The translations under genes and the position numbers were made by a program. From Brumimicrobium glaciale (GTDB lineage: Bacteria; Bacteroidota; Bacteroidia; Flavobacteriales_D; Crocinitomicaceae): a stretch of DNA of 64,000 bases. This document shows, in pieces, positions 44,177-60,547 of the stretch. The stretch's first letter is position 1, and each line of letters opens with the position of its first letter. Under the pieces are notes generated by a model, which was not told where the DNA came from, did not search any database, and worked only from the letters and a program-made list of their open reading frames with translations. The stretch is taken from contig NZ_SETE01000002.1 of NCBI RefSeq assembly GCF_004152935.1, positions 496,001-560,000 of the forward strand, given 5' to 3'.

Positions 44177-44366
44177 CCCCGACGGGACGGCATATTAATA
44201 GCCAAGGACATAAGTCCTTGGTTTAAAAAAAATAGATATAATACAAAACCCCACAAAATCGACCTAATTGCATGCAATTAGGTCGATTTTGTGGGGTTTT
44301 GTTTCGGTTTGTATCGTTTGGCGGATGGACTTACTTCCATCCCTATTAACATGCCGTCCCTCGGGG
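44177..44366. repeat. REPIN-like inverted repeat pair around a perfect 60-bp palindrome
   Basis: Left arm 44177-44221 and right arm (inverted) 44322-44366 share CCCCGA(C/G)GGGACGGCAT, then (A/G)TTAATAG and TAAGTCC. Each arm carries its own hairpin with compensated bases: CCAAGGAC-ATAA-GTCCTTGG on the left (44202-44221), GGATGGA/TCCATCC on the right (44323-44342). Between them 44243-44302 is a perfect 60-bp palindrome beginning ACAAAACCCCACAAAATCGA and centred on GCATGC. The arms look like REP elements, the whole like a REPIN/BIME. Confidence 0.85.
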
Positions 44367-44534: not shown

Positions 44535-45266
44535 TTATTTATCAATTTTTTCTAAATATTCCTCCAGAACATGTTTTGCTCTACTTGTCTGTTCAATAAG
44601 ATTATTTCGATGTTGTATTGTTAACCTTTTAGCTGCAATTGTCATGGATAAAAAGTTGAAGAATTTTTGATTAGTCTTAAGTTCACTAAAATTATTGGGT
44701 CGCATAGAAAAAAATGATTTACCTGTTTCAAAATAAGCTATAGATATATCATATCTGCGGTTTACTATATCTAATTCAAAAGCATTCCCTGCTTGCTCTA
44801 TCATTGGAAGCGATTGTTCGAATAATTCTATCAAAACCCGTTTTAAGGTATCGTTATGAATTAAGTCTATTCCCCTTTCTTTCAGATTTTCATAAGCACC
44901 ATCTATTACGAAGTAAGGGCTATATACTCCTATAAGACCGAACATTATATCTAATGAATCATGATAGGTTGAGTTTTCATCCTTAAGAATTTCAATCAAT
45001 TTCTCGCCATTATTTAGTATAGTGGAATCATGTTTCAAATAACTCTCTTGCTGAATAATATTTTGGTCAAGGTTTCGTCCAACTTCTTTTAAAGCTGATA
45101 TTTCATTTATTCTTAGTTTTCTATTTTCATTCCAGTTGTTTACCTGTAAGGCTAGCAAAATACCAATCATGACAAGCAGTATTTCACCAGTGGCATAAAG
45201 CAAGTATTTACCAAACTTGTTTTCGATAAGCATGCGTTGTCGAAATTTTCTAAAGAATTTTATCAT
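44535..45266 (-). CDS. DUF6090 protein, paralogue 1
   Basis: 243 residues; first of eight related genes in the window. All start MIKFFRK(F/I)RQ, then a basic stretch ENKxxKYLxYAxGE and one membrane helix (EILLVMIGILLALQVNNW, ~28-45 here). The rest is a long helical domain with a shared central motif of the form (A)Y-x2-L-x3-G-x-(D/L)-L-I-x-N-x2-L, here GAYENLKERGIDLIHNDTLK (~120-139). By the positive-inside rule the short basic N-terminus should be cytosolic and the large domain periplasmic. The family has no known function. An own promoter lies at 45335-45365. Confidence 0.85.
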   Translation of the reverse strand: MIKFFRKFRQRMLIENKFGKYLLYATGEILLVMIGILLALQVNNWNENRKLRINEISALKEVGRNLDQNIIQQESYLKHDSTILNNGEKLIEILKDENSTYHDSLDIMFGLIGVYSPYFVIDGAYENLKERGIDLIHNDTLKRVLIELFEQSLPMIEQAGNAFELDIVNRRYDISIAYFETGKSFFSMRPNNFSELKTNQKFFNFLSMTIAAKRLTIQHRNNLIEQTSRAKHVLEEYLEKIDK

Positions 45267-45334
45267 TGGTTAGTGGTTTATTGAAATATAATAATTGGTT
45301 TATGACATAGCATAAATTCGAAATAGATGTTCAT

Positions 45335-45365
45335 CAAATTTAAAAAAAAACAAACTGTCTTTCAG
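45335..45365 (-). promoter_or_regulatory. Promoter of DUF6090 paralogue 1
   Basis: -7 box TAAATTTG (45335-45342 on the minus strand) with a weak -33 CTG 20 bp upstream. It matches the promoters of the other paralogues in position relative to the gene. Confidence 0.55.
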
Positions 45366-45375
45366 TCATTTAACT

Positions 45376-46659
45376 CTATCTGTTTAAAAACTTAGGATGA
45401 TTCATACTAATGCAATGTATTCCGCCACCACCCAAATTAACAGCAAGAGCATCAATCATTACTATTTTTCGGCGAGTAAAAACAGATTGCAATATTTGCG
45501 CTGCCTTTTCATCTTTTTCTTTCAATTCAATAGGCATTCCTTCTCGCCAACAAGTTTGACCAACGATTACTTTGTCGGTAATAATAAAGTTGAGATAACT
45601 AAATGCTGGCATAACCTTTACGGTGTCTCCAGAAGGGAAAATACTTCCATCAATGTAATCAAGTGTTTTAATGTATTCATAAACATAATCACCGGGACTC
45701 AATGTTGAAAAAATAGTTACTGCTAGTGGCATTCGAATAATAGTAAATGGGTTATCATCTTGATCTGTTGCTGCGGATAAGATTTGATAATTTTCTTCAA
45801 TTCGTTTGTGATTTTCATAAGCAATTGGGTCGCTAAATTCTGAACTATCTATTTGTGCCAAAAGGATTGTGGAGTCATTTACAAAACGCGCAAATTCGTC
45901 AATGTGCCCGTTTGTGGTAACAACAGTGTAGGCTTTTGTTCCGTCAGAAGTTAAAACAGGGCCTAGGAAAGTGTGGCTGTCTTCAACTAAACCTTGTTTC
46001 AGCCAAATCGTTTTTTTAACTCCTAAAAGTCGATTGTATTCAGCCTCCATTTCCTTTTTGGTCATGGTTGGATTTCTTCCCATTTCAACCGATTCTGTGG
46101 TCAACAAAATTCCTTTTCCGTTTACTTCTCTATTCCCGCCTTCACTAATCATTGTACTCGAAATAACAGGTAAGTTATAATGTTCAGCTGCTCTTACATC
46201 ATACATTTCTTCTGTTTTCGTATCGTTGTCTAAAGTATCTGAATATCCCCAAGAATTAAAATTAAAGTCCGCAATTGCCAAAGTATTTTTATTTGTTTCT
46301 ACGAATGTTGGCCCCATGTCTCTTACCCAAATTTCAAAAGATGGGATTTCTATAAATTTAATACTTGGCTGATTACCAAAGTGATTTTCTACCGTTTGTT
46401 TTGCTTGTCCTAGGAGTTCTTTATCCTTGCAAGTAACTACAATGTTACTATTGTCAATTAAAGCTTCAATAATAGAAAGGGTAACATTTTCAACCGATTC
46501 TCCTTCTTTGTGATTCGTGGATGGCCATATCAACCAAATCGCTTCTTGGGCTTCAAACTCTGCTGGTTGGTTTACAACAATTAGAATGTCTGTTGATTTT
46601 GGAGCAGAGCATGAAATGATAAAAAAGACGATTAAAAAGATGGAAAAAATCGATTTCAT
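45376..46659 (-). CDS. Lipoprotein agmatine deiminase / peptidyl-arginine deiminase-family protein
   Basis: 427 residues. The lipoprotein signal MKSIFSIFLIVFFIISC is followed by SAPKS. The body is a pentein-fold guanidino-group hydrolase: FEAQEAIWLIWPS, the substrate site WVRDMGPTFVETN (~110), EGGNREVNGKGILL (~175), TNGHIDEFARFV (His-x-Asp, ~245) and the nucleophilic cysteine in LGGGGIHCISMNHP near the C-terminus. Classical agmatine deiminase is cytosolic and converts agmatine to N-carbamoylputrescine; a lipidated, exported version is unusual and may deiminate peptidyl-arginine or external agmatine. It has a strong promoter at 46736-46764. Confidence 0.88.
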   Translation of the reverse strand: MKSIFSIFLIVFFIISCSAPKSTDILIVVNQPAEFEAQEAIWLIWPSTNHKEGESVENVTLSIIEALIDNSNIVVTCKDKELLGQAKQTVENHFGNQPSIKFIEIPSFEIWVRDMGPTFVETNKNTLAIADFNFNSWGYSDTLDNDTKTEEMYDVRAAEHYNLPVISSTMISEGGNREVNGKGILLTTESVEMGRNPTMTKKEMEAEYNRLLGVKKTIWLKQGLVEDSHTFLGPVLTSDGTKAYTVVTTNGHIDEFARFVNDSTILLAQIDSSEFSDPIAYENHKRIEENYQILSAATDQDDNPFTIIRMPLAVTIFSTLSPGDYVYEYIKTLDYIDGSIFPSGDTVKVMPAFSYLNFIITDKVIVGQTCWREGMPIELKEKDEKAAQILQSVFTRRKIVMIDALAVNLGGGGIHCISMNHPKFLNR

Positions 46660-46735
46660 AAGGTGTGTTATGTGTTTTGGTGCTGTTTGAAAATTGGTTA
46701 ATCTTTTTTGGATTAATTAAATTAATTTTGATATT

Positions 46736-46764
46736 CAAATTTAGTAAAACTAATTGATTATCAA
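46736..46764 (-). promoter_or_regulatory. Promoter of the deiminase gene (TTG-N18-TAAATTTG)
   Basis: On the minus strand TTG (46762-46764), 18 bp, then TAAATTTG (46736-46743): a full match to the Bacteroidota consensus TTG-N17-20-TAnnTTTG. The start codon lies about 77 bp downstream of the -7 box. Confidence 0.75.
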
Positions 46765-46920
46765 GTATCTGATTTCAATTTATAGTTAGGAAAGAAAATA
46801 GAGTTTGTGAATGATTAGTTAAGTGGTTTAGCAAGGATCTTTTTTAATACAAGCTGAATTTAGAAAATCCATATCTTTATGTTTTAAAATATTCACCCAT
46901 CAACTTCCACAAAAATACAC

Positions 46921-47649
46921 CTAACCTTCTTGTTCAAAAATAATATTTCTTTCCGAATCTTTTTTGTACATGTTCTTAGGAATAATCCCTTTGTTCGCAT
47001 TTGAACGATAGCTTTTATTATGTGGATTTAGAATACATTCGAGTTGATACTCAATCATTTTTTCAAAAGGAAAAAGGAAATTCTTCGTGTCGCATTGTTC
47101 TAAGTTGCCTTCTTTAAGTAAATTTATGACAGTAAAAACTGACTCAATAGTACTGAGGCAAAGAGATGCTGGTTGCTGCTTAATTATAAATTTTGATTTT
47201 ATTTTATTATCAAAACTCACTCTTTTTAGTTTTTGCAAATTCTTACTTAGTTTAAGCATTTTACGGGCGCAAGGCCATGTGCCATCGAGAAGGAAGATGC
47301 TTGGGTTATTACCCATAAATGAATTTATTTCTGAACCTTTGCTCGTCGATAAGTTGAAATTTTCTTTTCCTGGATAAAGCAAAAAAGAAGAACTATTTTC
47401 TTTATTCAGTATTTCATTTACACGTTTATTATCGGTAAAATCGACACCCACTATAATTTCTGAATTTTCAAGTTGAAGATTGGTCATTCGTCCCGTTCCG
47501 TTTTTTTCTTTTTTGTACTCCATTGGGTGCATAAGAATAATAAAACGTGTTTTGGTCTGTAAAGGATTAGTGTGTTTACAAATACATGCACTCGAAGGCC
47601 TCATGCATTTGTAACATTTGATTCTTGGATTTTTTATTTCTACTTGCAA
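46921..47649 (-). CDS. DTW-domain tRNA-uridine aminocarboxypropyltransferase-like protein
   Basis: 242 residues. The N-terminal zinc ribbon KCYKCMRPSSACIC (CxxC...CxC) and the central motif LLDGTWPCARKML (D-x-T-W, the DTW signature, ~125) identify the family of SAM-dependent enzymes that add the acp group to tRNA uridines (TapT/YfiP and DTWD1/2). ILMHPMEYKKEKNGTGRMT and the late LSTIESVFTVINLL complete the pattern. It is cytosolic and its length is normal. It lies next to the attC-like element at 47693. Confidence 0.88.
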   Translation of the reverse strand: MQVEIKNPRIKCYKCMRPSSACICKHTNPLQTKTRFIILMHPMEYKKEKNGTGRMTNLQLENSEIIVGVDFTDNKRVNEILNKENSSSFLLYPGKENFNLSTSKGSEINSFMGNNPSIFLLDGTWPCARKMLKLSKNLQKLKRVSFDNKIKSKFIIKQQPASLCLSTIESVFTVINLLKEGNLEQCDTKNFLFPFEKMIEYQLECILNPHNKSYRSNANKGIIPKNMYKKDSERNIIFEQEG

Positions 47650-47692
47650 AGTGAATGTTTATTTATTTTTCTGATTACCAATCTTTTATATC

Positions 47693-47798
47693 ATGGGCGC
47701 AACTGGTTAGCGTATTGTTTATCGAAAATACAAATATTTAATCTTCAAGAATACAAAAGTAGAAGGTTTTTACATTCATGCAAAGGCTATTCTAGCAA
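47693..47798 (-). repeat. Cassette-end element, copy 1
   Basis: It shares with copy 2 the body CGAA(A/G)ATACAAA(T/C)ATTTA, (A/G)TAGAAGGTT and the end CAAAGGCT(A/G)T(T/G)(C/T)TAGCAA. The left part CAACTGGTTAGCGTATTG is matched at 49291-49309 by CAATTGGCTAAACGTATTA. On the minus strand it begins 8 bp after the stop of the HigA relic. The inverted-box structure is less complete than in copy 2. Confidence 0.65.
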
Positions 47799-47805
47799 AA
47801 ATGTT

Positions 47806-47955
47806 TTAATAATTCTCAATCAAAGATTCATAAGGAATATTCAATTTTTCGTGTAAGTTTCTAATCATATTAAGAGAAAGTTTTCTTTTTCTACTTAAAA
47901 TTTCAGACACTCTGCTTTTATAACCTATGATTTGAGCTAAATCTTTATTTGACAA
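47806..47955 (-). pseudogene. HigA-type antitoxin, C-terminal HTH remnant
   Basis: The minus-strand frame reads LSNKDLAQIIGYKSRVSEIL, SRKRKLSLNMIRNLHEKLNI, PYESLIENY and stop: the helix-turn-helix and C-terminus of HigA/XRE-type antitoxins. A TAA lies two codons upstream of the first conserved residue, and the usual ~60 N-terminal residues are missing. No HigB toxin is recognisable beside it. Confidence 0.85.
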
Positions 47956-48116
47956 AAGTTACCAATATGGTAAAACTAAATAAAAAGAGTTCCTTGAATT
48001 ACTCATCCTCCGTCTCTTTAGAAAATTGGTTTATATGCTAAAGATTTAATGAATGCTATTATTTTATTACCAGAAATGATAGGAGAGTTGAGTTATAGTT
48101 GTTCTATTTAAGGTTT

Positions 48117-48243
48117 GCTAACAGATAAGGCTTTGCGGCGGCCTGTTTAATAAATGTTTTACCGAAGATACAAACATTTAGATTTACATGAATGTAAAAA
48201 TAGAAGGTTATTAAAGGCTGACCGTCAAAGGCTGTGTTAGCAA
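48117..48243 (-). repeat. attC-like imperfect palindrome (cassette-end element, copy 2)
   Basis: The ends TTGCTAACA and TGTTAGCAA are perfect 9-bp complements. Just inside, CTTTG-CGG (left) pairs with CCGTCAAAG (right) with one unpaired base. The outer and inner boxes are separated by unequal short spacers. This nested R/L-box layout, the ~125-bp length and the position 7 bp after the stop of the 48251 gene are those of an integron attC site, although the R box (GTTAGCA) does not fit GTTRRRY. Confidence 0.6.
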
Positions 48244-48250
48244 TTTACTT

Positions 48251-49264
48251 TTATTTTCTTGGCCAATTAGATGATTTGTAATCTGCATTTCCAATTCCTA
48301 AAGGTAATCTTTGTGCAAAATGCGGTTCAGGATTAAAAACTGCATCTTTTTGTAAAACAAAATTCAGCAATGCAAGTGAAGAACTTACTCCCATTGCATC
48401 TCGCATTGTTATGAGTAAAAAACCTGTATCAATAACGCAATTAATCCATATTGTAGCTTCTTCAATTGTTATAATCAAAGATGGTGGGTCAAAATGCATA
48501 AAGTGATTTCTTAATTCACGAAGCTTTGTGAAACTTGGTAAAAACTTTTCAGCTTTCAAATGATTCCCTGTTATTTTATAAATCCAATTTATTTTATCAT
48601 CAAATTTTCTACCATGTCTTTTTCCTAAAACTTCAATGTCAAAAGTCCAATTCGGTAATGGATCATATTCAGCTTTAATATAAAACTGTGTGAGTGTTAT
48701 TTCAACGAGAGAAATGGTATCACTTATTAATGACCTTAGGTCAAAAAACCAATCGTCATCAACAATAACTTGAGAGTTATTTATCAGTCTATCACGTAAC
48801 TTTCTTATTCTATTTAAGAGTTGCGGTTGCAAAGTTGTGAAAGACCTACCTTCTCTACTCATTATAGGCTCAATAGGATATTTCTCGCCAAATTGTTGTT
48901 TAGTAAATCCATCAAAAACTGATAAACCATTTGGTGCTGTATGATCAAATTTGTGCCAATTAACAGCAATGTCAAGTGAAGTGTCAAGCCAAAAACATTC
49001 CAATGGTGATAAATTGAAATATTGATAATCGAAATAGCCTTTTTCTCTTATGTATTTCGCTATTATTAGATAATTGATTGGCTTACTACTTTGTTTTATT
49101 TCGTTTCCATCAATCCAATTTACATTATAAGTCTTGTTATCCTTTTTCCACTTTTTTCTAGTCTGTGTTTTCCCGAAATAATGCTCTATAATTCTGAAAG
49201 ATATTTCTGTATTAACTCCAACCCTCTGTTTATCACTATAAATTATATATTTATGTTCGTTCAT
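48251..49264 (-). CDS. Orphan protein with HEPN-type R-x4-H motif
   Basis: 337 residues, cytosolic, no family recognised. The C-terminal half is helical and contains LPSFTKLRELRNHFMHFDPP (~250-270): R-N-x3-H preceded by an amphipathic helix, as in the active site of HEPN ribonucleases, with VEITLTQFYIKAEYDP as a possible partner helix. The N-terminal ~110 residues (IIYSDKQRVGVNTEISFRII, WLDTSLDIAVNWHKFDHTAP) are unlike anything I can name. The gene is the cargo of a cassette-like unit: attC-like element 7 bp after its stop and a related boundary sequence (49291-49319) upstream of its start. A defence or toxin role is inference. Confidence 0.7.
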   Translation of the reverse strand: MNEHKYIIYSDKQRVGVNTEISFRIIEHYFGKTQTRKKWKKDNKTYNVNWIDGNEIKQSSKPINYLIIAKYIREKGYFDYQYFNLSPLECFWLDTSLDIAVNWHKFDHTAPNGLSVFDGFTKQQFGEKYPIEPIMSREGRSFTTLQPQLLNRIRKLRDRLINNSQVIVDDDWFFDLRSLISDTISLVEITLTQFYIKAEYDPLPNWTFDIEVLGKRHGRKFDDKINWIYKITGNHLKAEKFLPSFTKLRELRNHFMHFDPPSLIITIEEATIWINCVIDTGFLLITMRDAMGVSSSLALLNFVLQKDAVFNPEPHFAQRLPLGIGNADYKSSNWPRK

Positions 49265-49584
49265 AACGATAGTTGTTAAAGTTTTTGCTACAATTGGCTA
49301 AACGTATTACGCATACCCAAGCTATATCTTTTCAATCAAATTTAATAATTTAATTAGACTTTTCATTGTTTAAACAATCACAAAAACTTAACTCTACATT
49401 TTCCGAAGTTAATCCATGTAAAATCCATTCACGAAAACGAAAATCCACTTCCCCCACCATAATTACCAGCAGAATTCCATCATTCAAAAAAACCTACAAC
49501 AAAATTCAAAACATACCCTTACCAATCCACCAAATACTCAGATAAACCCTGATTTTTAAACTATTCAATTTGTTTTTGATAACA
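49265..49584. other. 320-bp gap with a cassette boundary sequence
   Basis: CAATTGGCTAAACGTATTA at 49291-49309 resembles the left end of the cassette element copy 1 (CAACTGGTTAGCGTATTG). The remainder is AT-rich, C-rich in its second half on the plus strand, with no gene. Confidence 0.55.
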
Positions 49585-50316
49585 TTACCAATTCGAAAGT
49601 CGTTCTATTTCTAACTCAAGCCTATTCAAAATACTTTCACATTCCTTCTTCGCTCTACTGTACCTGCTAATCGATACATTTCTTACTTGTGCTGTATATG
49701 CTAATCTACTGTGAAACACAGTATCTTTACTAATTTCATCGAAACTCCTTGGCTTTGCCGACTCAAAAAGTTTCCAATTGGTCATATTCTCAATCATAAA
49801 GATTTTGTTTTGTTCTAAATCTATGTAGTTAAAATTCCGCTGATTCTCCAAGATTTCAGAATAGATAATATCATACATCAACTGTACTTGTCTTCGCAAG
49901 CTGTCATTGCTGATAATGTCCAAACCTCTGGATTTTAAAGTCTCATAAGCACCAGTATTATTTACGAATACTGAAATAATATAGAATTGACCGAAATGGC
50001 GATCTAAACTATCATGATACGGCAATCCCTGATCGAAGGCAGAAATCAACTGCTCACACGCATAAAGTCCTTTCTTGTTAAAGTTAAGATTGAAGTTAAT
50101 GTCATTCAAATCTTCCCTAAAAGACGATTTCAATTCACTCAATGTACTTATCTCTAGTATTTTTTCATTATTTTTTTCTTTCCAATTGTTGAGCTGTAAC
50201 GCTATTAAAATTCCAATTACAACAAGTATAATTTCTCCACTGGCATAAAGTAGGTATTTACCCATCTTGTTTTCCAGAAGCATGCGTTGGCGAAATTTTC
50301 TAAAGAATTTTATCAT
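49585..50316 (-). CDS. DUF6090 protein, paralogue 2
   Basis: 243 residues. The N-terminus MIKFFRKFRQRMLLENKMGK and helix GEIILVVIGILIALQLNNWK are close to those of paralogue 3. The central motif reads GAYETLKSRGLDIISNDSLR (~117-136). The C-terminal helices (NFNYIDLEQNKIFMIENMTN, RAKKECESILNRLELEIERL) are its own. A perfect promoter lies at 50390-50418, so it is probably transcribed separately from paralogue 3, 254 bp upstream. It is nearest to the cassette island. Confidence 0.85.
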   Translation of the reverse strand: MIKFFRKFRQRMLLENKMGKYLLYASGEIILVVIGILIALQLNNWKEKNNEKILEISTLSELKSSFREDLNDINFNLNFNKKGLYACEQLISAFDQGLPYHDSLDRHFGQFYIISVFVNNTGAYETLKSRGLDIISNDSLRRQVQLMYDIIYSEILENQRNFNYIDLEQNKIFMIENMTNWKLFESAKPRSFDEISKDTVFHSRLAYTAQVRNVSISRYSRAKKECESILNRLELEIERLSNW

Positions 50317-50389
50317 TGGTTGGTGGTTTCTGATAATGAATCAAAACAATTGGATAGTCCAAAGCATAAATTCAGAATATATGTCAATC

Positions 50390-50418
50390 CAAATTTAACA
50401 AAACAAACTGAATTTCAA
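50390..50418 (-). promoter_or_regulatory. Promoter of DUF6090 paralogue 2 (TTG-N18-TAAATTTG)
   Basis: On the minus strand TTG at 50416-50418, 18 bp, TAAATTTG at 50390-50397. The spacer GTTTGTTTTG text is shared with the promoters of paralogues 1 and 3. Confidence 0.75.
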
Positions 50419-50570
50419 TTATTTAATTCCATTTCAAACTTGAAACCATCATATTGAATAATAGTAGTTTTTATGGTTTAATTGAATCCTGTGTCAAGCA
50501 ATTGTTTAGTGTATAGACGAGATGTTAATAAATTTAATCTTCTATTCAATATTGTACTTTGCTAATTCCA

Positions 50571-51299
50571 TTAATTTTTAACCTCATTATAGGATTCCAA
50601 ATCATCTATCAATTTATTCAGATCGAGAGAAGATCTTTCTAATACGCTGTTTAGGCGATTGCAGGTATTTAGAAATAATTTAGCATAAGAAATAAATTCT
50701 TTATCCACACTTTTAATTCTTTCCTTAATTTCTAAATTACTTTGATTTAAATCAATCAAATTATTTGGGACTAAAAAATTTAATTTACAATGAGTCCCAT
50801 ATTCAGTAGCTTTATCTAATTGTATTTTTACCCCCATTATTTTCAGACGGTACATATTGTCGATTTGTTTAGTCAAACTATCTGGTAATTGATTTAATAA
50901 GTCTGAGTTGGATAGACTGTTGTAGAGAGGCGAATTTTCATTTTGAAAATAAATATCCGTACCCAACCTTTTTAAAGTCCATTTTAGATTAGTAGTATCA
51001 ATTTCTTTTTCATTTTCCCAATGATCTATTGTTTTATGAAATGATTTAATCACATTTTCAGTGTCTTTTAAGTCTGAGAAATGCTCTCTTTGTTTTCCTT
51101 TTAAATCTGAAATTAACAAATCAATTAATTGCCCCTCCAAGCGCTGTTCCTTTCTTTCTTCATTCCAATTATTAATCTGCAACGCTATTAATATTCCAAT
51201 TACAACAAGTATAATTTCTCCACTGGCATAAAGCAGGTATTTACCCATCTTGTTTTCAATAAGCATGCGTTGGCGAAATTTTCTAAAGAATTTTATCAT
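50571..51299 (-). CDS. DUF6090 protein, paralogue 3
   Basis: 242 residues. The N-terminal 45 residues are almost those of paralogue 2 (MIKFFRKFRQRMLIENKMGK). The central motif is more diverged: SPLYNSLSNSDLLNQLPDSL (~128-147), lacking the usual Gly. The periplasmic-type domain starts with a longer charged linker (ERKEQRLEGQLIDLLISDLK, likely coiled coil). Promoter at 51378-51406 with TAAATTTA in place of TAAATTTG. Confidence 0.85.
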   Translation of the reverse strand: MIKFFRKFRQRMLIENKMGKYLLYASGEIILVVIGILIALQINNWNEERKEQRLEGQLIDLLISDLKGKQREHFSDLKDTENVIKSFHKTIDHWENEKEIDTTNLKWTLKRLGTDIYFQNENSPLYNSLSNSDLLNQLPDSLTKQIDNMYRLKIMGVKIQLDKATEYGTHCKLNFLVPNNLIDLNQSNLEIKERIKSVDKEFISYAKLFLNTCNRLNSVLERSSLDLNKLIDDLESYNEVKN

Positions 51300-51377
51300 T
51301 TGGTTGGCGGTTTTTGCTGTTGGAGTAAAACAATTGGATAGTCTCTGTTAAGAGTTCCAGCCTAAATCTATTAATTT

Positions 51378-51406
51378 TAAATTTAATAAAACAAACTGAA
51401 TTTCAG
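51378..51406 (-). promoter_or_regulatory. Promoter of DUF6090 paralogue 3
   Basis: CTG at 51404-51406, 18 bp, TAAATTTA at 51378-51385 on the minus strand: one mismatch in each box from TTG-N18-TAAATTTG. The spacer is nearly the same as in paralogue 2. Confidence 0.6.
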
Positions 51407-51544
51407 ATATTTAATTCTAATTTCTACCAGAAAAGAAAATGTGAATATTCGTAAATTTTATTTATTTTGAAACCATCCTAGCTCTAAATTGTTAAGCGAA
51501 TTTATCCAGAGAAGAGGATAGGCTTTCCATCTATTCTAATAATA

Positions 51545-52291
51545 TCAATTCTCATTTATAATTTTGTCAATTTCTAAAATTAATCTCTTGGTTTTTTCTA
51601 ACAAGATTGTTCTAAAATAATTGACTCCCTGAAGTCCAAATATTTTCGAAGAAATCGCAGCATTTAAGTCTATAATTAGCTTGTTGTGATCAATTTGTTC
51701 CCAAAACGGATTCAAAATCTGACCATTAATTGCGTTAGTGGCAATGTTTAGCGGATAACTTTGGGAATATTCTACACCGACATTTGCAGCAATTTCTAGA
51801 TTAAAATCAATTCCTTTTAAAACGGTTAACTGGTAAGCATGGTGTTCTTGAATTTTTTTAACAAAACCCTTGTCAAGCAAATCCAAATTACCCGTTGCAA
51901 TCAATGCATTAAATGTGCTTAAGTTCAATTCATTTGAAGGGTCAAAATAAGGTAAAAATTCGTAACGCGCTATTTCTATTATCGTGTCAATATCAGCAGT
52001 GACAGAGGAAAGTCGTTTTGACAAAGCCAAATTATTTGACATATCATTTGCAAAACGCGCTATTTGGTCTTCGAGTAAAATAACGTCAGCTCTTAAATCT
52101 GATTGCAATGCGATTATGTAACTATCACTGATTTTTTCCTTTTTAGATTCCTCATTCCATTCATTTACCTGTAAGGCAATTAAAATTCCAATGACAACAA
52201 GTATAATTTCTCCACTCGCATAAAGCAGGTATTTACTGAACTTGTTTTCAATCAAAGATTTTTGTCGAATTTTTCTAAAGAATTTTATCAT
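51545..52291 (-). CDS. DUF6090 protein, paralogue 4
   Basis: 248 residues. The N-terminus MIKFFRKIRQKSLIENKFSK defines a sub-type shared with paralogue 5 (IRQKSLIENKF instead of FRQRMLIENK). The central motif is STFNALIATGNLDLLDKGFV (~125-144), with the Gly and following hydrophobics in place. The domain before it (RADVILLEDQIARFANDMSN) looks coiled. The ~110 bp upstream is nearly identical to that of paralogue 5, pointing to a recent duplication that included the promoter. Confidence 0.85.
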   Translation of the reverse strand: MIKFFRKIRQKSLIENKFSKYLLYASGEIILVVIGILIALQVNEWNEESKKEKISDSYIIALQSDLRADVILLEDQIARFANDMSNNLALSKRLSSVTADIDTIIEIARYEFLPYFDPSNELNLSTFNALIATGNLDLLDKGFVKKIQEHHAYQLTVLKGIDFNLEIAANVGVEYSQSYPLNIATNAINGQILNPFWEQIDHNKLIIDLNAAISSKIFGLQGVNYFRTILLEKTKRLILEIDKIINEN

Positions 52292-52367
52292 TGGTTAGTT
52301 TTGATTTTAAAAGATGAACAATATTAGGCTAAATGCATTGATGAATTTACACCAAATGTCTTCCATT

Positions 52368-52396
52368 CAAAATTAACAAAACTAATTGATTTTGAA
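52368..52396 (-). promoter_or_regulatory. Promoter of DUF6090 paralogue 4
   Basis: TTC at 52394-52396, 18 bp, TAATTTTG at 52368-52375 on the minus strand; perfect -7 box, -33 with one mismatch. Confidence 0.65.
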
Positions 52397-52557
52397 ATAT
52401 TTAAGGTTTTGTTAAATTGAAATGGTTATTTTGGAAATCACGTGATTGTTTTGGTCTATTTAAGGAGAGGAAATGATTTAAATATTTTTTATTCTACGGT
52501 CGACATGCAGACCAAGTGTGAAGCATGAAAATCATATATCTTTATTTTATACTTCCA

Positions 52558-53289
52558 TTAATCATTCAGATATTGAAGATGTTTATCAAGTTGAATCAAC
52601 ACCAAACTCACTTCCTTTTGAACGTCAATATATTTGTTCTGCATAAAATTCCTCAAGAAAATGTTCAATTTAATAACTTCTAAAAATTCTCTATCTTCTA
52701 TTAATTCCTCATAATTTTCTGGAGTTCCTGAAACCCACAGCATTTCAATATGAATGTGTTTTAAAACCTGAGGATAAAGTTGCTTCCACTGATACCAATC
52801 ATCTACGCCTTTTTCAACATTTTCTAAGTAGACATATTTTGTAGAATATAGGCGAGATAATGAATTTCGCAATGAATCATTTGAAATCAAATCAAAGCCA
52901 ATAGATTTCATATTTTCCCAAGCAGATGTATTCTCCGTTAATTGAAAATTTCCAAAAGTATTTCCAAAATGATATTTTAAAGAATCATTGAAGGGTAGTT
53001 TTGTCTCAAGAGCAGTTTTCACAGCTTCATTTGAACGAATTCTCTCTTTATTTGCTCCTATAGTCCCATTCAATACAGATAAGTCTTCTTTTAAATTGAG
53101 TTGCATCTCAATTAAAAGAATAAGCTCTTTATGTTTTAACTTACTTTCCTCATTTTGATTATTAATTTGAAGTGCGATTACAATTCCAATAACCACTAAA
53201 ACTATTTCTCCAAGTGCATAAATCAGGTATTTAGTGAACTTATTTTCGATTAAAGATTTTTGTCGAATTTTTCTAAAGAATTTTATCAT
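52558..53289 (-). CDS. DUF6090 protein, paralogue 5
   Basis: 243 residues. The N-terminus MIKFFRKIRQKSLIENKFTK and helix GEIVLVVIGIVIALQINNQN are nearest to paralogue 4, but the C-terminal domain resembles paralogues 1 and 2 in its central motif SAWENMKSIGFDLISNDSLR (~117-136). The 5' part and the rest therefore have different nearest relatives, as expected if 5' ends are exchanged between copies. Own promoter at 53367-53395. Confidence 0.85.
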   Translation of the reverse strand: MIKFFRKIRQKSLIENKFTKYLIYALGEIVLVVIGIVIALQINNQNEESKLKHKELILLIEMQLNLKEDLSVLNGTIGANKERIRSNEAVKTALETKLPFNDSLKYHFGNTFGNFQLTENTSAWENMKSIGFDLISNDSLRNSLSRLYSTKYVYLENVEKGVDDWYQWKQLYPQVLKHIHIEMLWVSGTPENYEELIEDREFLEVIKLNIFLRNFMQNKYIDVQKEVSLVLIQLDKHLQYLND

Positions 53290-53366
53290 TTGGTTAGTTT
53301 TGATTTTAAAAGATGAACGATATTAGGTTAAATGCATTGATGAGTTCACATCAACTGTCTTCCTTT

Positions 53367-53395
53367 CAAAATTAACAAAACTATTTGATTTTTAA
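53367..53395 (-). promoter_or_regulatory. Promoter of DUF6090 paralogue 5
   Basis: TTA at 53393-53395, 18 bp, TAATTTTG at 53367-53374 on the minus strand. The surrounding ~110 bp is a near copy of the region upstream of paralogue 4. Confidence 0.65.
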
Positions 53396-53633
53396 TAATT
53401 TAAGGTTTTATTTTAAATTCGAATTGTATAGATTTACATACTTAACTCAAACGCTAACAGATTTGGATAAGCAATGAACACCATATTAATAACGAACATG
53501 AATAGCTTTATTCTATCACTCTAAAATTCCGTGAATTCGTTTAAAAATATAACCCCCTAATTTATCAATGCTTTCAGCAACTAAAATTAAATCTCTTTAT
53601 TTCTTAAGCTGAAAAGCTTATCATAAAAGTTTT

Positions 53634-53709
53634 GGCCAGTGGCGAATCTAAAACACAACTTTCATCATAATTCCGATTATTAATTTCATCCTTAAATTCG
53701 CCACTAACC
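53634..53709. repeat. Spaced inverted repeat downstream of the T9SS propeller gene
   Basis: AGTGGCGAAT (53638-53647) and ATTCGCCACT (53696-53705) are perfect 10-bp complements 48 bp apart; with flanking GGCC/AACC the arms extend to 14 bp with two mismatches. No T-run. The 448-bp gap 53290-53737 otherwise contains only the paralogue 5 promoter. Confidence 0.65.
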
Positions 53710-53737
53710 TCCCTCCTATTTTAACTAAAAACCTCTT

Positions 53738-55183: not shown

Positions 55184-55285
55184 ATTTCGTTATTTACTTT
55201 TTTTGTTCAACAAAGGTCAACAATCAATGTAAATAAGGCTTCACGGCTAGGGGTGAAATCAAAAAAACACCTTTAGACGTAAAAT

Positions 55286-56917
55286 TTAAGACGGTAAAAT
55301 TGGATTATTGGAAATTTTTATTCCTTCCAATAGCAGAGATATTTTTTTGTATTTAGTTTCCTTAATTCCGAAGTAATCATACATCCTACGCAATGAAGAA
55401 CCAATTCCATCAACACTTTTGAAAGCTTTCTCTGCTATATCTTTATTTGTAATTACAGGGTCATCCAATAGAATATTAAGCACTGTCCAATCAGTTTCGT
55501 TTAATTTCCTTTTAATCGAAATTTCTATTTTTTCTCTCACCAATTCAAATTTATTAGCATCAACAATAAGATTTGAACTTGCATTAAGTTTAAGATTTTC
55601 TATTTCAACAAGTAAATCTTCTCTCTTTTTATGGTTTCTTTTTATGCGAGAAGAATAGTAAATAATAATCAATGCAATTAATAAAGCGGATGCAAAAGTA
55701 ATAGCAAACGTTATTTTTAATTGTTTCAATTCTAGTTTTGCTTGCTCTTTTTCATTTTCTAGCTTGGTTTCAAATAGTTTCACTTCAAAGTCATTTTTAA
55801 CGGCTTCCCTAGCAACGGCAAAATTGTTTTTTTCTAATTGAATACTGTCATTGAAAATGGTGTACTGCTCGTGCATCTCAAGAGATAATCTGATTTTATT
55901 TTGTGCTTTATAACACATATACAATAAATGGTATGCCTCTTTTTTTATGTCTTTGTCTGTTTCCGGAAGAATTAAAGTTAAAATAGCTTCTCCTTGTCTT
56001 GCTGCTTCATCAACATTAGTTTCAAATGTTATCTGCGCAATTACTAAAAGGGCTTCAGCAGTTCCTCTTTCGATATTGAGTTCTTTATTAATTGCTAAAT
56101 TCTTTTCAGCAAATACAAGCGCTTTCTCTAATTTATTTAATTCAAGATATATTTTAGCCAAGAGCTTATAACATCCCGCAATAAAGAATTTCTCATTTTT
56201 TATTTCAAGTATTTTTAGCGCTTTTTCAAAAGGAATTATAGCTTCATTGTACAATTCTTTCTCGAATTTTATTAATCCAATATTCATTAGATTTACAGCT
56301 GTTCCAGTATTTTCAACCCCACTATTTTTGGCTATTTCAAGAGATCTATTGTAATATTCAATTGCTAAATCACGGTTACCAATTGTTAAATAAACGCTTC
56401 CTAAACTTCTCAGCATCCTACCTTCGCCTTTTTTATCTTTTTCTTTTTGGAAAATTTTTAAAGCTTTAGAATAATATTGAGTTGCTTCTTGATAATTTTG
56501 TTGCTTTAAAAAAATATTTCCAATATTACCCGTTATCGTTGCTTGTAGAATTGGATTTTCTAGTTGTATTGCTAATTCCCCTGCTCTATTATAGGATTCC
56601 AAAGATTTAGTAAAGTCACCTTTGAGTCTGTATATATTTCCTCTTCTATTTAAGGCACGAAACATTTCGCGTGTTGCCTTCTTCTCTTTGGCTAAATTGT
56701 AATGGTAATCGATTGAAAATAACGCTGAATCCGGTTGAGAATAGCTGAAAATATCATGATATTCTTTTAGCGCCTTAAATCTTATTGAATCTAATTCTTT
56801 TACATTAGAATATATCGATTGCAAAGAATCTCCTTTGTTTTGGGAATAACTTGTCTTAGCAATAGACGACACTAATAGAATGAATATGAACAATTTTAGT
56901 ACTAATTTCAATCGCAT
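55286..56917 (-). CDS. TPR sensor-type protein with membrane helix and C-terminal HTH
   Basis: 543 residues. A signal peptide (LVLKLFIFILLVSSIAKTSYS) is followed by six to eight TPR units at ~80-350 (e.g. RALNRRGNIYRLKGDFTKSL, MLRSLGSVYLTIGNRDLAIE, AIIPFEKALKILEIKNEKFF). Then come a coiled coil (FETKLENEKEQAKLELKQLK), one membrane helix (ITFAITFASALLIALIIIYY, ~398-417) and a cytosolic C-terminus of ~115 residues. Its end (NETDWTVLNILLDDPVITNK then DIAEKAFKSVDGIGSSLRRM) looks like a LuxR-type helix-turn-helix. This one-component layout (periplasmic TPR, membrane, DNA-binding) is common in Bacteroidota. It lies in the middle of the DUF6090 array, with gene targets unknown. Confidence 0.85.
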   Translation of the reverse strand: MRLKLVLKLFIFILLVSSIAKTSYSQNKGDSLQSIYSNVKELDSIRFKALKEYHDIFSYSQPDSALFSIDYHYNLAKEKKATREMFRALNRRGNIYRLKGDFTKSLESYNRAGELAIQLENPILQATITGNIGNIFLKQQNYQEATQYYSKALKIFQKEKDKKGEGRMLRSLGSVYLTIGNRDLAIEYYNRSLEIAKNSGVENTGTAVNLMNIGLIKFEKELYNEAIIPFEKALKILEIKNEKFFIAGCYKLLAKIYLELNKLEKALVFAEKNLAINKELNIERGTAEALLVIAQITFETNVDEAARQGEAILTLILPETDKDIKKEAYHLLYMCYKAQNKIRLSLEMHEQYTIFNDSIQLEKNNFAVAREAVKNDFEVKLFETKLENEKEQAKLELKQLKITFAITFASALLIALIIIYYSSRIKRNHKKREDLLVEIENLKLNASSNLIVDANKFELVREKIEISIKRKLNETDWTVLNILLDDPVITNKDIAEKAFKSVDGIGSSLRRMYDYFGIKETKYKKISLLLEGIKISNNPILPS

Positions 56918-57323
56918 TTAAGGGTTATTTTTCTGAAATAAATTTTTAAGCTAACGCATCTAGCTTTTTTTCAAACTGGATTTATCTTTTGCATGATCCG
57001 TTTTAATGATCTGGATTTTATATCTCAACAAAATTACTTCAAATAAGCTACAAAACAAACTATATCCTAATGCATGAAATTAGAAAAAGACGCACTTTAT
57101 TCTCTGCGAATTTGTGCTTTTTTTTGTTCTACATAATCATCAAAATTGGGATGGTCTTTTTTGACTGGAAAACTAAAACGACTAATCCGATATTCGCCGT
57201 TTTCTTTGGTAAGTATGAGCAAATACATTCCGCTTTCGACTAGGTGAACTGGACAAGCGGCTTTGGGTTCCTCTTTCTTGGCTTTTCGGAAAAAGGAATC
57301 AAAACGATCAGTTATTATTTAAA
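56918..57323. other. 406-bp gap with a gene remnant
   Basis: Contains the minus-strand remnant at 57097-57318 (below). The part 56918-57096 lies upstream of the TPR gene and should hold its promoter; no clear box was found. Confidence 0.5.
57097..57318 (-). pseudogene. C-terminal remnant of an unidentified gene
   Basis: The minus strand is open for about 74 codons up to TAA at 57097-57099, with the text DRFDSFFRKAKKEEPKAACP, VHLVESGMYLLILTKENGEY, RISRFSFPVKKDHPNFDDYV, EQKKAQIRRE. There is a stop immediately upstream and no start codon except an internal Met. Composition and continuity look protein-like, so I read it as the tail of a broken gene. I do not recognise the family. Confidence 0.5.
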
Positions 57324-58094
57324 TTACTTGAACAATTCCTTTTCAATTAAATGAATCAAATTGAGAATATCTTCTTCAAAATCGGGATAATTGGTTTTGT
57401 GCAGATGCATTGAAGTTGCCAATTGAATTAATAAAATATTTTCAAACTCAGTTGACGATAGGATTTGTTTATTACTTGTAAAAGATGATAATTTAGGGAT
57501 TTCAACATAGTCCGAAAAGCTTGAATAATCAAAAACTGTTCTAAAATTACCATGATTTTCAAAATAGATATTGGCCCTATGCCATGATATCCGCAGTCCT
57601 TTTTCTTGATCTCTCAGTTTAGAAACTTTACCTTCCCAAGACGCCAGTTCATTAACAATAACCAGGTTTTCTATGTCTTTTAAACTTCCAGATGCTATTA
57701 ATTCACTTAAGATACCATTTTCGTAATCAACCTTAATAGTTGGGGAAAGAACAGCGGCTAACACTTTTGAGAGAACCTTTTCGCTTATCGTGTCTAAGGT
57801 CAATTGATTATGCATAAATTCAATTAACTGTCTTTGACTATTGACGTTTTTAGCCAAACTATTTCTTTCCGCTTTTATCGATTCAAGATTGTTAAGCATT
57901 TCGCTTTTAATTAGAGATAAATAAGTATCCTGTTTATCGTGAATTTTATCGGTTTCATTCTGATTATTGATCTGTAAAGCAATTAAAATACCAATAACAA
58001 CAAGAATTATTTCTCCACTGGCATAAATAAGATACTTACCGATTTTATTTTCAACAAGCATTTTTTGGCGAAATTTTCTAAAGAATTTTATCAT
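57324..58094 (-). CDS. DUF6090 protein, paralogue 6
   Basis: 256 residues. MIKFFRKFRQKMLVENKIGK with helix GEIILVVIGILIALQINNQN. The central motif is NGILSELIASGSLKDIENLV (~124-143). The longer N-terminal linker (SEMLNNLESIKAERNSLAKN) is probably coiled. No promoter of the array type is seen in the 110-bp gap to paralogue 7, so it is likely the last gene of an operon of paralogues 8-7-6. Confidence 0.85.
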   Translation of the reverse strand: MIKFFRKFRQKMLVENKIGKYLIYASGEIILVVIGILIALQINNQNETDKIHDKQDTYLSLIKSEMLNNLESIKAERNSLAKNVNSQRQLIEFMHNQLTLDTISEKVLSKVLAAVLSPTIKVDYENGILSELIASGSLKDIENLVIVNELASWEGKVSKLRDQEKGLRISWHRANIYFENHGNFRTVFDYSSFSDYVEIPKLSSFTSNKQILSSTEFENILLIQLATSMHLHKTNYPDFEEDILNLIHLIEKELFK

Positions 58095-58204
58095 TAGTTA
58101 TTGGGTTATTATTGTTTCTTCGCTAACAGTCTAAATGATGAATCATAGCGTTTTATTTCATTTTAAATCAGAAGATTAATTACATTTAAACAGTCTAGAA
58201 CTCG

Positions 58205-59341
58205 TTACTTTTCTAGTTCTAATTCTGAAAGTACTTTTATAGCAGACCCATTTTCTGGATTTAATGCTAATGATTTTTTATAAGCTTTAATGCCATTTTC
58301 TTTATCTCCCATGATCAGTAAGCAAGCGCCATAACTGTCGTATGTGCCCCAAGCTTCAGGATATAGTTCTGTATTGAGTTTAAATAATTTAAGAGCTTCC
58401 GTGTTCCTTTTGACTTCAGTCATAGTATAATAACCTATAGCATTGATTTCTGTTTCAGAGATATCAAAATCTATATTTTCTATATTTCCCTTATCTTGCT
58501 GTTTTATTACTTCAATGATTTCATCAATAGTCCTGCCTGCTTCATATAAAGAATATAAGCTAACAATTGTACTTTCAATATCCTTATCAGGAATGCCTAG
58601 TTCTGCATTAATGATATTATTTAGAATATTTATATAATATTTACCCCCTTTTATTGTACTTAATTGAATTTGTTCATTAACGTTTTTAAATTTAAAAGCT
58701 GCTCTTAAAATCAATACGATTTCTCTATAATTATCATTTATGTTTAGCGCGTTGTACAGGGGATATGAATCATCAAAATTGGCTACATGCACCGTTCTAT
58801 CTGGTAAATCGTACCCTAACTTTGATACATTCATTATTTCCTTCATAAATAGTTCATAGTTTGTTTGCGCTTTATTCGTAACAACAGCTTGAATATTTGC
58901 CGTTTCAAGAAGCTTATTCCTCATGAACGGAGGAATCAATTTAATATCTCCGGTGGTTTCGAGCGTTTTAATAGTATTTGCGTTAAATTTAATAGCATTG
59001 TATTGTAGATTGAGCTTATTGACTAGCCTCAAAGCCGCTTCTGGATTCATTTGATTTTGAAATTCTTCTTTAAATTCGTTGTACATTTTAATATTCGTTT
59101 CCAGGTTATAAATTGCGATATTTATAAGGTTATAGTCCTTTTTTAAATCTTCTTGTATCTGGAAGTAATAATTCTCTAAAATTGCAGCGCTTTTTCTATT
59201 CTCATTCCAAGTGTTTATTTGAAGTGCAATCAAGATTCCAATAACAACAAGTATAATTTCTCCAATGGCATATTTAAAGTACTTTCCAGTTTTGTTTTCT
59301 ATCAAAGCGAGTTGGCGAAATTTTCTAAAGAATTTTATCAT
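58205..59341 (-). CDS. DUF6090 protein with C-terminal TPR extension, paralogue 7
   Basis: 378 residues, ~130 longer than its relatives. The N-terminal ~240 residues are DUF6090-like: MIKFFRKFRQLALIENKTGK, helix GEIILVVIGILIALQINTWN, central motif NTIKTLETTGDIKLIPPFMR (~120-139). The extra C-terminus (~290-378) carries TPR-type helices: NAIGYYTMTEVKRNTEALKL, FKLNTELYPEAWGTYDSYGA, CLLIMGDKENGIKAYKKSLA, LNPENGSAIKVLSELE. This exact TPR tail is common behind other Bacteroidota secreted domains, so the gene is a domain fusion that may give the DUF6090 domain a peptide-binding partner. Confidence 0.87.
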   Translation of the reverse strand: MIKFFRKFRQLALIENKTGKYFKYAIGEIILVVIGILIALQINTWNENRKSAAILENYYFQIQEDLKKDYNLINIAIYNLETNIKMYNEFKEEFQNQMNPEAALRLVNKLNLQYNAIKFNANTIKTLETTGDIKLIPPFMRNKLLETANIQAVVTNKAQTNYELFMKEIMNVSKLGYDLPDRTVHVANFDDSYPLYNALNINDNYREIVLILRAAFKFKNVNEQIQLSTIKGGKYYINILNNIINAELGIPDKDIESTIVSLYSLYEAGRTIDEIIEVIKQQDKGNIENIDFDISETEINAIGYYTMTEVKRNTEALKLFKLNTELYPEAWGTYDSYGACLLIMGDKENGIKAYKKSLALNPENGSAIKVLSELELEK

Positions 59342-59437
59342 TTGGTTCTTGGTTGTTAAAATGATGAACAGCGGTTAGTCTATGAAGCATAGTATCCCTT
59401 GAGGCACTGTGATCTCATAATCTTTGATGTGCTTTCG

Positions 59438-60211
59438 TTATTTATTTTCAGCTAATTCTGAATCAATTGAACTCAATAATTTTTCAGTCATCAAAATCAT
59501 CTTTTTATAGTCAAGAATGAGCCTATTGTTACTGAAAATTGAAAGTACAAATCCATTCTTAAATGTTTGATTTTTTAATAACAATTCCATTTTATCCTTT
59601 GATAATTCTGCTTTTGTTCCTTCTGTTCCTTTTGATACTTGAAAAGTATAGTTTGTAATATCTGATTGAAGGTCAGTAATGCTAAAATAAATTGGGTACA
59701 AATAACTTTCGAAATCTTGCCTCATGTGACGCTCTATAAATTCTATTTGCTTGTAATTCAATTCCATATTGATAAGTAAATTCTTTATTGAATCATTAGA
59801 TATAATTGCAAGGTTTCCAGAGTTTATCAATTCTTGATATGCATTGTTGTTCTTATTAAATGGATACCAAATCTGAACATTTAGATTGTGAAAATTAAAA
59901 TCTTCTGGGTCGACGTTTTCTATATTTTCAAAAAATTCGAGTATAGTTTCAGCTGAATTTACCGATCTTTCTCTTGTTATAATATAAGCTTTGAGTTCGA
60001 TTAAATTAAGATGTGAATCGGCTTTTATATTTGCCAAATAGCTAAGTTCTTTTATTTTTATTTTACGTTCTTCGTTATTATTATTTATTTGTAAAGCAAT
60101 CAAAATTCCAATCACGACAAGAATAATTTCTCCAACAGCATAAAGTAGGTATTTGCCAAACTTATTTTCTATAAGCATGCGTTGTCGGAATTTTCTAAAG
60201 AATTTTATCAT
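59438..60211 (-). CDS. DUF6090 protein, paralogue 8
   Basis: 257 residues. MIKFFRKFRQRMLIENKFGK and helix GEIILVVIGILIALQINNNN are nearest to paralogue 1. The central motif is NNAYQELINSGNLAIISNDS (~123-142). It is the first gene of the probable operon 8-7-6 (gaps 96 and 110 bp), led by a perfect promoter at 60245-60273. Confidence 0.85.
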   Translation of the reverse strand: MIKFFRKFRQRMLIENKFGKYLLYAVGEIILVVIGILIALQINNNNEERKIKIKELSYLANIKADSHLNLIELKAYIITRERSVNSAETILEFFENIENVDPEDFNFHNLNVQIWYPFNKNNNAYQELINSGNLAIISNDSIKNLLINMELNYKQIEFIERHMRQDFESYLYPIYFSITDLQSDITNYTFQVSKGTEGTKAELSKDKMELLLKNQTFKNGFVLSIFSNNRLILDYKKMILMTEKLLSSIDSELAENK

Positions 60212-60244
60212 TGGTTATTGGTTGGTCATAATGAAGTACAATAT

Positions 60245-60273
60245 CAAAATTAAGAAAACCATTTGACTTTCAA
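60245..60273 (-). promoter_or_regulatory. Promoter of DUF6090 paralogues 8-7-6 (TTG-N18-TAATTTTG)
   Basis: On the minus strand TTG at 60271-60273, 18 bp, TAATTTTG at 60245-60252; full match to the Bacteroidota consensus, 34 bp before the ATG. The rest of the 388-bp gap 60212-60599 contains only the terminator at 60548. Confidence 0.78.
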
Positions 60274-60547
60274 TCATTTAATGAACTTATTTGATTTTCA
60301 ATAGTTTAAAATATTATTCCTGTTCGGTCAAATTTCATACTGCATACTTATAATTTATTTGCTTTCTCAAAGCCTTAAAAGTACCATTTGGTTGAATTAA
60401 TATCATTTAAACTATTCCACACTCCTGCTTAAAATCCTTTGGTGAAATTCTAAAGAGTTTGTCAATGTGCAAGGTGTGTGGTATAAATCTTTAGTTTTCT
60501 TGCAGTCGTTATATAAAAAGGCTTAGAGAATACATAACCACTTCATC

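Follow-up and report, generated by a model that had tools for sequence, protein, structure and literature searches.

DUF6090 genes of Brumimicrobium glaciale in a probable remnant of integron-like gene cassettes

Introduction

In the Vibrio superintegron, arrays grow by the capture of gene cassettes, and in pilin and hsdS systems a constant part is joined by recombination to an exchanged variable part. Both are reminiscent of what we describe here: eight genes of the family DUF6090 (PF19578) in a stretch of 64,000 nucleotides (nt) from Brumimicrobium glaciale (GCF_004152935.1, contig NZ_SETE01000002.1, positions 496,001-560,000 of the forward strand; hereafter the window) and, around related genes in other genomes, an attC-like element that delimits gene cassettes. 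On the evidence presented below, the window array is probably a fixed, promoter-bearing remnant of such integron-like cassettes.

Several integron surveys, judging from passages of these papers, seek the same kind of object (PMC9024848, PMC8352920, PMC2426708, PMC8618304). For Bacteroidetes, the passages of the IntegronFinder 2.0 study name In0 elements, found earlier, and one complete integron, in Salinibacter ruber M1 (PMC9024848). Integrons are sought with attC and IntI models in which, to judge by these passages, Bacteroidota play hardly any part. Our literature search yielded no paper mentioning DUF6090 or the N-terminal motif MIKFFRK, and, on integrons in Flavobacteria and Bacteroidota, no description of the arrays reported here in titles, opening parts of abstracts and selected passages of the papers listed.

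Results

The eight genes all lie on the minus strand and span positions 44,535-60,211 of the window: g1 (44535-45266), g2 (49585-50316), g3 (50571-51299), g4 (51545-52291), g5 (52558-53289), g6 (57324-58094), g7 (58205-59341) and g8 (59438-60211). Their open reading frames (ORFs) encode 242-378 amino acids (aa), and all eight proteins exceed the PF19578 gathering score of 23.5 bits, with 26.5-40.4 bits; the family is listed as being of unknown function, and its Pfam match starts at residue 28, omitting the constant N-terminal tail. A sequence-only reading of this DNA had attributed a common start and a single membrane helix to the eight proteins, and both observations hold. From the ATG through codon 7 (21 nt), 8/8 copies have the same DNA, synonymous sites included; in shuffles, the degenerate start pattern, one mismatch being allowed, was matched 0.03 times on average. 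The strongest hydrophobic stretch begins at residue 22-24 in each protein, and no 19-residue window elsewhere exceeds 1.27. The same 141 nt, from the start codon to codon 47, open every gene and encode the N-terminus and the transmembrane (TM) helix; we refer to them as the 5' module (60071-60211, minus strand, in g8). For six pairs, the BLAST alignment covers precisely residues 1-50, with 78-86% identity. Beyond residue 50, only 5/28 pairs give a BLAST match at E<=0.01, in keeping with the earlier statement that the remainder has little in common. This is true of pairwise comparison but not of profile searches: a hidden Markov model (HMM) of the C-terminal domain (C-domain) matches 300 of the 301 full-length relatives from which it was built and 0/301 shuffled sequences, and a model built without the window finds seven of its eight C-terminal parts at E<1e-3 and that of g7 at 0.0034. 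As a single HMM fits all of them, unrelated C-domains in the eight genes were rejected. The central motif proposed for all eight is, in an alignment inspected by eye, complete in g1 and g2, nearly complete in g5 and g8, and degenerate in g3, g4, g6 and g7. Within the array, the 5' module of g2 is 93% identical at the DNA level to that of g3, with no BLAST match between their C-domains, and the 123-nt region upstream of g5 is 90% identical to that of g4. Protein g7 has an extra C-terminal part resembling tetratricopeptide repeats (TPR; 21.5 bits against a Pfam cut-off of 27.8, E 0.00019).

For comparison we assembled 79 loci from species genomes, taken from the best 80 of 491 confirmed matches as ranked by similarity to g8. 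Relatives 72% identical to g8 occur in Lacinutrix jangbogonensis (locus L001) and in a metagenome-assembled genome (L002). An HMM of the N-terminus found 321 DUF6090 ORFs in the loci and the window, 312 of them with an ATG start; the nine others were left out. Exclusion of 11 genes shorter than 200 aa left 301 full-length proteins, and codon-level counts were made on 292 genes, 20 of the 312 having been dropped because G27-E28 were not in register. Five of 69 proteins classed as interspersed between DUF6090 genes proved to be DUF6090 themselves, so that the gene list is incomplete by at least five. The number of ATG-started copies ranges from one per locus (for example L001 and L002) to 20 in L021 from Winogradskyella vincentii; a uniform number would have argued against the diversifying array that the sequence-only reading had in mind.

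In these relatives, DUF6090 is a frequent cargo of same-strand, mostly single-gene cassette arrays that carry a conserved, foldable attC-like element. The edges of the gene blocks are marked by GTTGTGCTTCATTA upstream and TAACGAAAGCACAAC downstream. A search of 1.38 Mb that tolerated two mismatches or fewer located 64 downstream arms, against 1 in one Markov control, and 85 upstream arms, against 23. Of the former, 55 lie no more than 60 nt behind a DUF6090 stop codon; of the latter, 32 are placed exactly 31 nt before an ATG. Between the tail of one gene and the head of the next lies an imperfect palindrome, which measures 118-127 nt in 19/20 aligned elements; some copies have only 45-60 nt. 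Its stem comprises 12 pairs, with 90% of cells paired and seven pairs changed on both sides, and its covariation score of 0.386 compares with 0.126 for shuffled alignments (reached by 0/500) and drops to <=0.08 when the stem is slid. Single-strand folds of the element have z-scores of -1.3 to -4.7, and no match to Rfam was found in the six loci tested. Searched with a covariance model, R1, the 80 sequences gave 189 hits at E<=0.01, of which 20 are the model's training sequences. All lie on the plus strand, that is, the array strand, since the loci had been oriented by their DUF6090 gene. After setting aside four (three cut by locus ends, one borderline), 185 elements remained, spread over 40 of the 80 sequences, with 24 in 20 kb of L078.

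The head of a cassette is complementary to the tail of the same cassette, which is what site-specific recombination would lead one to expect. On average, 3.19 of the four variable core bases pair, compared with 1.61 for permuted tails (maximum 1.89 in 1,000 permutations), and pairing is perfect in 84/128 cassettes. Without the GTTGTGC heads typical of DUF6090, the values are still 3.09 vs 1.52, while a tail and the head of the next cassette pair at chance level (1.63). Positions 4-10 and 12-14 pair more often than they do with permuted tails, and position 11 holds a conserved mismatch. The cassettes have a median length of 822 nt; 126/127 carry their longest ORF on the array strand, and 92/128 have a single ORF of at least 60 aa. 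DUF6090 accounts for 34/128 cassettes, in loci that were chosen for DUF6090. Among the 25 of 81 families listed for the 93 cassette proteins are beta-lactamase-fold proteins (4), TPR proteins (4), ParE (2), hydrolases and one PAD_porph. One further DUF6090 cassette copy, in Polaribacter sp. IC066 (L014:4552-5319), is interrupted at codon 41 by an in-frame stop; the gene list does not include it.

Sequences similar to the element were found by blastn in two plasmids and no phage, and its exact patterns in 0 and 1 contigs of IMG/VR. R1 detected 10 elements at E<=0.02 in the Polaribacter phage P12002L, nine of which fall into the stretch from 30.0 to 39.7 kb, so the element is not confined to chromosomes. 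Several of the phage copies (L084:30009-40216) have just 45-65 nt, in a region with several DNA methyltransferase genes. No tblastn match to g8 itself was obtained in the plasmid or phage collection. In a Tenacibaculum finnmarkense plasmid, a pair of genes for an IS91 transposase and a tyrosine recombinase abuts an attC-like element twice (L081:9894-11878 and 13118-15141), as if this transposon targeted the element; in another plasmid entry of the species (L082:20647-21555), the recombinase alone is annotated beside it.

Traces of such cassettes are also seen in the window. A position weight matrix of the cassette-type leader, trained on 30 genes outside the window and run over the 64 kb, placed its three best sites before g8 (60212-60242, minus strand, 39.5 bits), g2 (50317-50347, minus strand, 36.8 bits) and g3 (51301-51331, minus strand, 15.4 bits, one base further upstream); the maximum in 20 Markov sequences was 4.7 bits. 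At its end, g8 carries an eroded cassette tail, TAACGAAAGCACATC, which begins with the stop codon (59426-59440, minus strand). A degenerate attC-like element (46801-46910, minus strand, 21.4 bits; E 0.14 in the full search and 0.0024 when 24 kb were searched without filters) lies between a DTW-domain gene (46921-47649, minus strand), which adjoins this relic on its upstream side, and a gene for a peptidyl-arginine deiminase-like protein of the PAD_porph family (PAD; 45376-46659, minus strand). The best match found for PAD, at 77% identity, comes from Polaribacter sp. IC066 (L014), where it lies within a cassette whose head and tail match, and the best C-domain match of g1 in the sample is likewise a cassette-borne gene, in Maribacter antarcticus (L036:8391). 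In addition, a promoter-like repeat of 55 nt, TTG ... TAAATTTG, precedes g2 (50391-50445, minus strand), g3 (51379-51433), g4 (52369-52423), g5 (53368-53422), g8 (60246-60300) and PAD (46737-46791). We take it for a promoter with -33 and -7 elements rather than a shared operator. The repeat is thus present at 5/8 DUF6090 genes and PAD; g7 and g6 follow g8 closely, and the corresponding stretch before g1 (45338-45392) scores no better than shuffled controls. The window array is probably an eroded version of the cassette arrays, in which the remaining window genes, too, may be former cassettes.

The two parts of DUF6090 genes have had different histories. The 5' module tends to be homogenised within a genome, while C-domains are common to different genomes, and in some cases genera, as gene-sized blocks. 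For 247 testable genes, we compared the best match of the 5' module (nt 4-141) with that of the C-domain, a genome being represented by one to three loci of ~20 kb. The best C-match was in another genome for 239/247 genes; the best 5'-match was in the gene's own genome for 88/247, compared with a mean of 6.0 and a maximum of 13 in 500 label shufflings. At least 75% of synonymous codons in the 5' module are common to 16/842 within-locus pairs vs 68/41,644 between-locus pairs. Both C-domains are present in 15 of these 16, and 13 of the 15, including six pairs of neighbours, have no C-domain BLAST match. Such a lack of C-similarity is the rule within loci, as 710 of all 811 within-locus pairs with C-domains are without a C-match. 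The alike 5' DNA (74-96% identity) reaches back to the ATG or beyond it and extends to nt 115-194, mostly to 140-160; g2 and g3 of the window are one such pair.

The converse is seen between genomes. Although the N-terminal part is the most conserved portion of the family, synonymous identity is higher in the C-domain in 30 of 41 reciprocal-best C-pairs, significantly so in 11, with one significant reversal. In L011/L013, the C-domains are 98% and the N-terminal parts 84% identical in DNA, with flanks at 84-91%; in Psychroflexus L063 and Xanthomarina L059 the values are 94% and 80%. The corresponding synonymous divergences (dS), which are rough for the short N-terminal part, are 0.91 vs 0.055 and 1.03 vs 0.20 for N-terminal part and C-domain, respectively. 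The Hanstruepera pair L007/L009 shows 95% identity in the C-domain, 77% in the N-terminal part and 85% in the flank, and the 5' module of the L007 gene is 95% identical to that of its neighbour. Between named genera, C-domains reach 90-96% DNA identity (L005/L004, L063/L059, L067/L054). In 22 of the 23 cross-genome pairs with at least 75% C-identity, the homologous block starts within -42 to +69 of the ATG; it also ends near the stop codon in 16/23, and 14/23 include an element-flanked member. Exchange of domains and mobility of cassettes seem to be the source of the family's diversity.

The identity of codons 1-7 in 8/8 genes is local to the window. Across 292 genes, synonymous sites of the start are mostly near background, and selection on the start codons at the nucleotide level was rejected. 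The strongest exception is Phe4, encoded by TTC in 79% of genes vs 20% background, a preference that may serve to prevent a run of T; smaller biases occur at Arg9, Leu13 and Leu31. Proteins of at least 285 aa make up 17/301 (for example L079:10777-11952, L021:8184-9221 and L004:8738-9790), and some of these long forms carry extra C-terminal parts that by eye look ankyrin-like or resemble DUF3471. At the other extreme, ORFs of 55-60 aa contain little beyond the 5' module (L011:11518-11685, L013:11482-11649, L074:10755-10934, L064:13074-13256); these are possibly recombination leftovers or broken copies.

A candidate recombinase is encoded in L056 (3896-5104), immediately before the first cassette of the array, its stop codon less than 50 nt from the first cassette head. 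This XerA-like tyrosine recombinase has 402 aa and an N-terminal extension. It scores 192 bits on the integron integrase model TIGR02249 (cut-off 265), in two stretches, and 205.6 bits on the XerA-type model NF040815 (cut-off 220); its best sequence match in the PDB is XerA, with IntI4 in third place. Relatives were found as one weak match in IMG/VR and in 60 plasmids at <60% identity.

To obtain a view of the protein, we modelled g8 with AlphaFold2. From 91 sequences, the model reached a predicted local distance difference test (pLDDT) score of 95.4 and a predicted template modelling (pTM) score of 0.82; with eight sequences, pLDDT was 75.6. The model is all-helical, with a short helix, one long helix that runs through and past the TM segment, and a helical bundle, which the basic N-terminus would place in the periplasm. 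Neither the PDB nor BFVD contained a match to this fold at E<=0.001. Invariance among all 91 sequences is limited to Met1 and to R9, Y21, Y24, A25, G27, E28, L31, V32, G35, I36 and A39; the latter are located at or near the membrane. Tentatively, and with considerable doubt, one might picture a single-pass protein with its N-terminus inside, whose periplasmic bundle binds something variable and whose conserved TM helix packs with a common partner or with others of its kind. The TM segment is reminiscent of the N-termini of type IV pilins.

A regulator with TPR repeats and a winged helix-turn-helix (HTH) domain does sit in the middle of the array (55286-56917, minus strand), as the sequence-only reading had pointed out; its role as a partner of DUF6090 was rejected, since a relative occurs in 1/79 loci and the gene is no recurrent neighbour in the sample. 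Context is little conserved in general: three of the 11 non-DUF6090 neighbours in the window were found among the 79 loci, each in 1/79 only. Pfam scans of the 69 interspersed proteins, 86 of the 161 flanking proteins and the 93 cassette proteins revealed no recurring partner gene among the commonest 25 families of each. Elsewhere in the window, a perfect 30-nt inverted repeat without spacer lies downstream of g1 (44243-44302), and small genes with similar N-termini (...KRP..L..LLLLSSI...) start at 18056, 19005 and 20980 (18056-21537).

Discussion

Our results can be combined into a scenario in which a site-specific tyrosine recombinase would insert and excise single DUF6090 genes. Once a gene has arrived, its 5' module would be converted to that of the host by homologous recombination between it and the resident copies, and a portable exported domain would thereby be mounted on a host-type membrane anchor. 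As for the window, arrival as cassettes may account for PAD and for g8, g2 and g3, if not for the whole set of eight; their recombination elements would afterwards have been lost, and promoters of their own acquired or retained.

Several observations weigh against this scenario. In the window, the fourth-best leader site (8300-8330, plus strand, 9.4 bits) precedes no DUF6090 gene, the leaders of g1, g4, g5 and g7 are weak and g6 has none (5/8), and the single degenerate element does not make the window a cassette array by our definition. In the sample, only 55/304 DUF6090 genes outside the window have an element within reach, and for the majority without one, unequal crossing-over could suffice. 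All frequencies are biased towards relatives of g8, as the loci had been picked by similarity to it. The recombinase adjoins an array in one locus only (L056), and the elements of phage P12002L lie on the strand opposite to most surrounding genes. Concerning the two histories, 158/247 genes have neither best match at home, and 5' homogenisation is modest (0.528 vs 0.461 expected within loci, 0.479 vs 0.441 between loci). In the 41 reciprocal pairs, DNA identity is higher in the C-domain in only 24 and protein identity in 11, and in L067/L054 the entire gene is 96% alike.

Could plain tandem duplication and gene conversion account for these data? Unequal crossing-over would then have multiplied the genes, with conversion of the slowly evolving membrane segment, drift of the C-domain and no part for cassettes in the window. 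Adjacent DUF6090 genes less than 2 kb apart are indeed on the same strand in 207/207 pairs, and 68 of these have start codons overlapping the upstream gene by exactly 8 nt (37) or 4 nt (31); the family start ATGATTAA carries stop codons for both other frames, so that an upstream gene can end inside it, which would allow these very overlaps. Homogenised blocks, moreover, mostly stop about where homology itself stops, and the window contains just one weak element. What duplication leaves unexplained, however, are the C-domains that different genera have in common, the gene-sized blocks, the leaders before g8 and g2 and the cassette-borne relatives of g1 and PAD, and we consider it improbable as the full account. 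Far less probable still is that the intergenic element is a terminator, a miniature inverted-repeat transposable element or another dispersed repeat rather than a recombination site. The missing Rfam match, the short copies and the IS91/recombinase pair on the Tenacibaculum plasmid would be compatible with such a repeat, but it would give no reason for a gene's head to complement its own tail around a conserved mismatch, or for so many elements to lie on the array strand, up to two dozen within a single locus.

The sequence-only reading had favoured a diversifying receptor, immunity or stress-sensing array; we consider it here as a receptor or immunity array shaped by positive selection against phages or toxins. 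Its architectural premise, tandem genes that combine an unchanging membrane module with a variable exported domain, is borne out, and the large differences in copy number and the spread between genomes would also fit; the arrays have little context in common. Positive selection is not what we found: dN/dS over the whole C-domain is 0.02-0.40 in 15 pairs, so that the domain as a whole is conserved by purifying selection, even if such averages leave room for single selected sites. Nor does a toxin or defence partner recur among the families listed; each PADLOC model that hit matched one of the 69 interspersed proteins and the cassette cargo is mixed, although ParE-type toxin genes do provide 2/93 cassette proteins. 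A receptor or immunity array under such selection is an unlikely explanation, and the cassette remnant remains our preferred one.

Should a widespread marine family indeed harbour dense arrays of this class that have been overlooked, a sizeable pool of mobile genes there would be unaccounted for, and the covariance model R1 offers a handle on it. DUF6090 itself gains a history and a testable logic, that of a portable outer domain recombined onto a host-specific membrane anchor. It is conceivable, if somewhat less than probable, that Flavobacteriaceae possess a distinct, overlooked class of integrons, with long arrays on the chromosome, an attC-type site of ~124 nt, a 14-nt head/tail pairing specific to each cassette in place of GTTRRRY and a XerA-like rather than IntI recombinase; among its conspicuous cargo would be membrane-anchored proteins whose exported domain passes between genera, with the anchor rewritten to match that of the host.

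Compared with described integrons, the arrays stand close and yet apart. The 11 taxon-specific attC models of IntegronFinder 2.0 include none for Bacteroidota (PMC9024848), and the passages of the four surveys make no mention of Flavobacteriaceae arrays. For phage P12002L, passages of an earlier study describe attC sites predicted beside DNA methyltransferase genes, one of which, P12002L_attC2, recombined with attI1 through IntI1; chromosomal arrays of flavobacteria are not described in these passages (PMC9892861). Our R1 elements lie in the same phage and may include the sites tested with IntI1. In contrast to integrons, the complementarity in our arrays reaches ~14 nt with a mismatch kept at position 11, the heads rarely follow the GTTRRRY core consensus (5/119 GTT-initial heads), and the L056 recombinase falls below the IntI cut-off and lies on the cassettes' own strand. 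As GTTRRRY heads are rare and the one candidate recombinase is XerA-like, we class the arrays as integron-like and not as canonical integrons. In several respects they match chromosomal integrons: the arrays of the relatives likewise consist of same-strand, mostly single-ORF cassettes with mixed accessory cargo, the 118-127 nt of 19/20 aligned elements fall inside the 57-142 nt given for attC in passages of an earlier report (PMC2727003), and, like attC, the element is a foldable site that starts with AAC and ends with GTT, in arrays where the head of a cassette complements its own tail.

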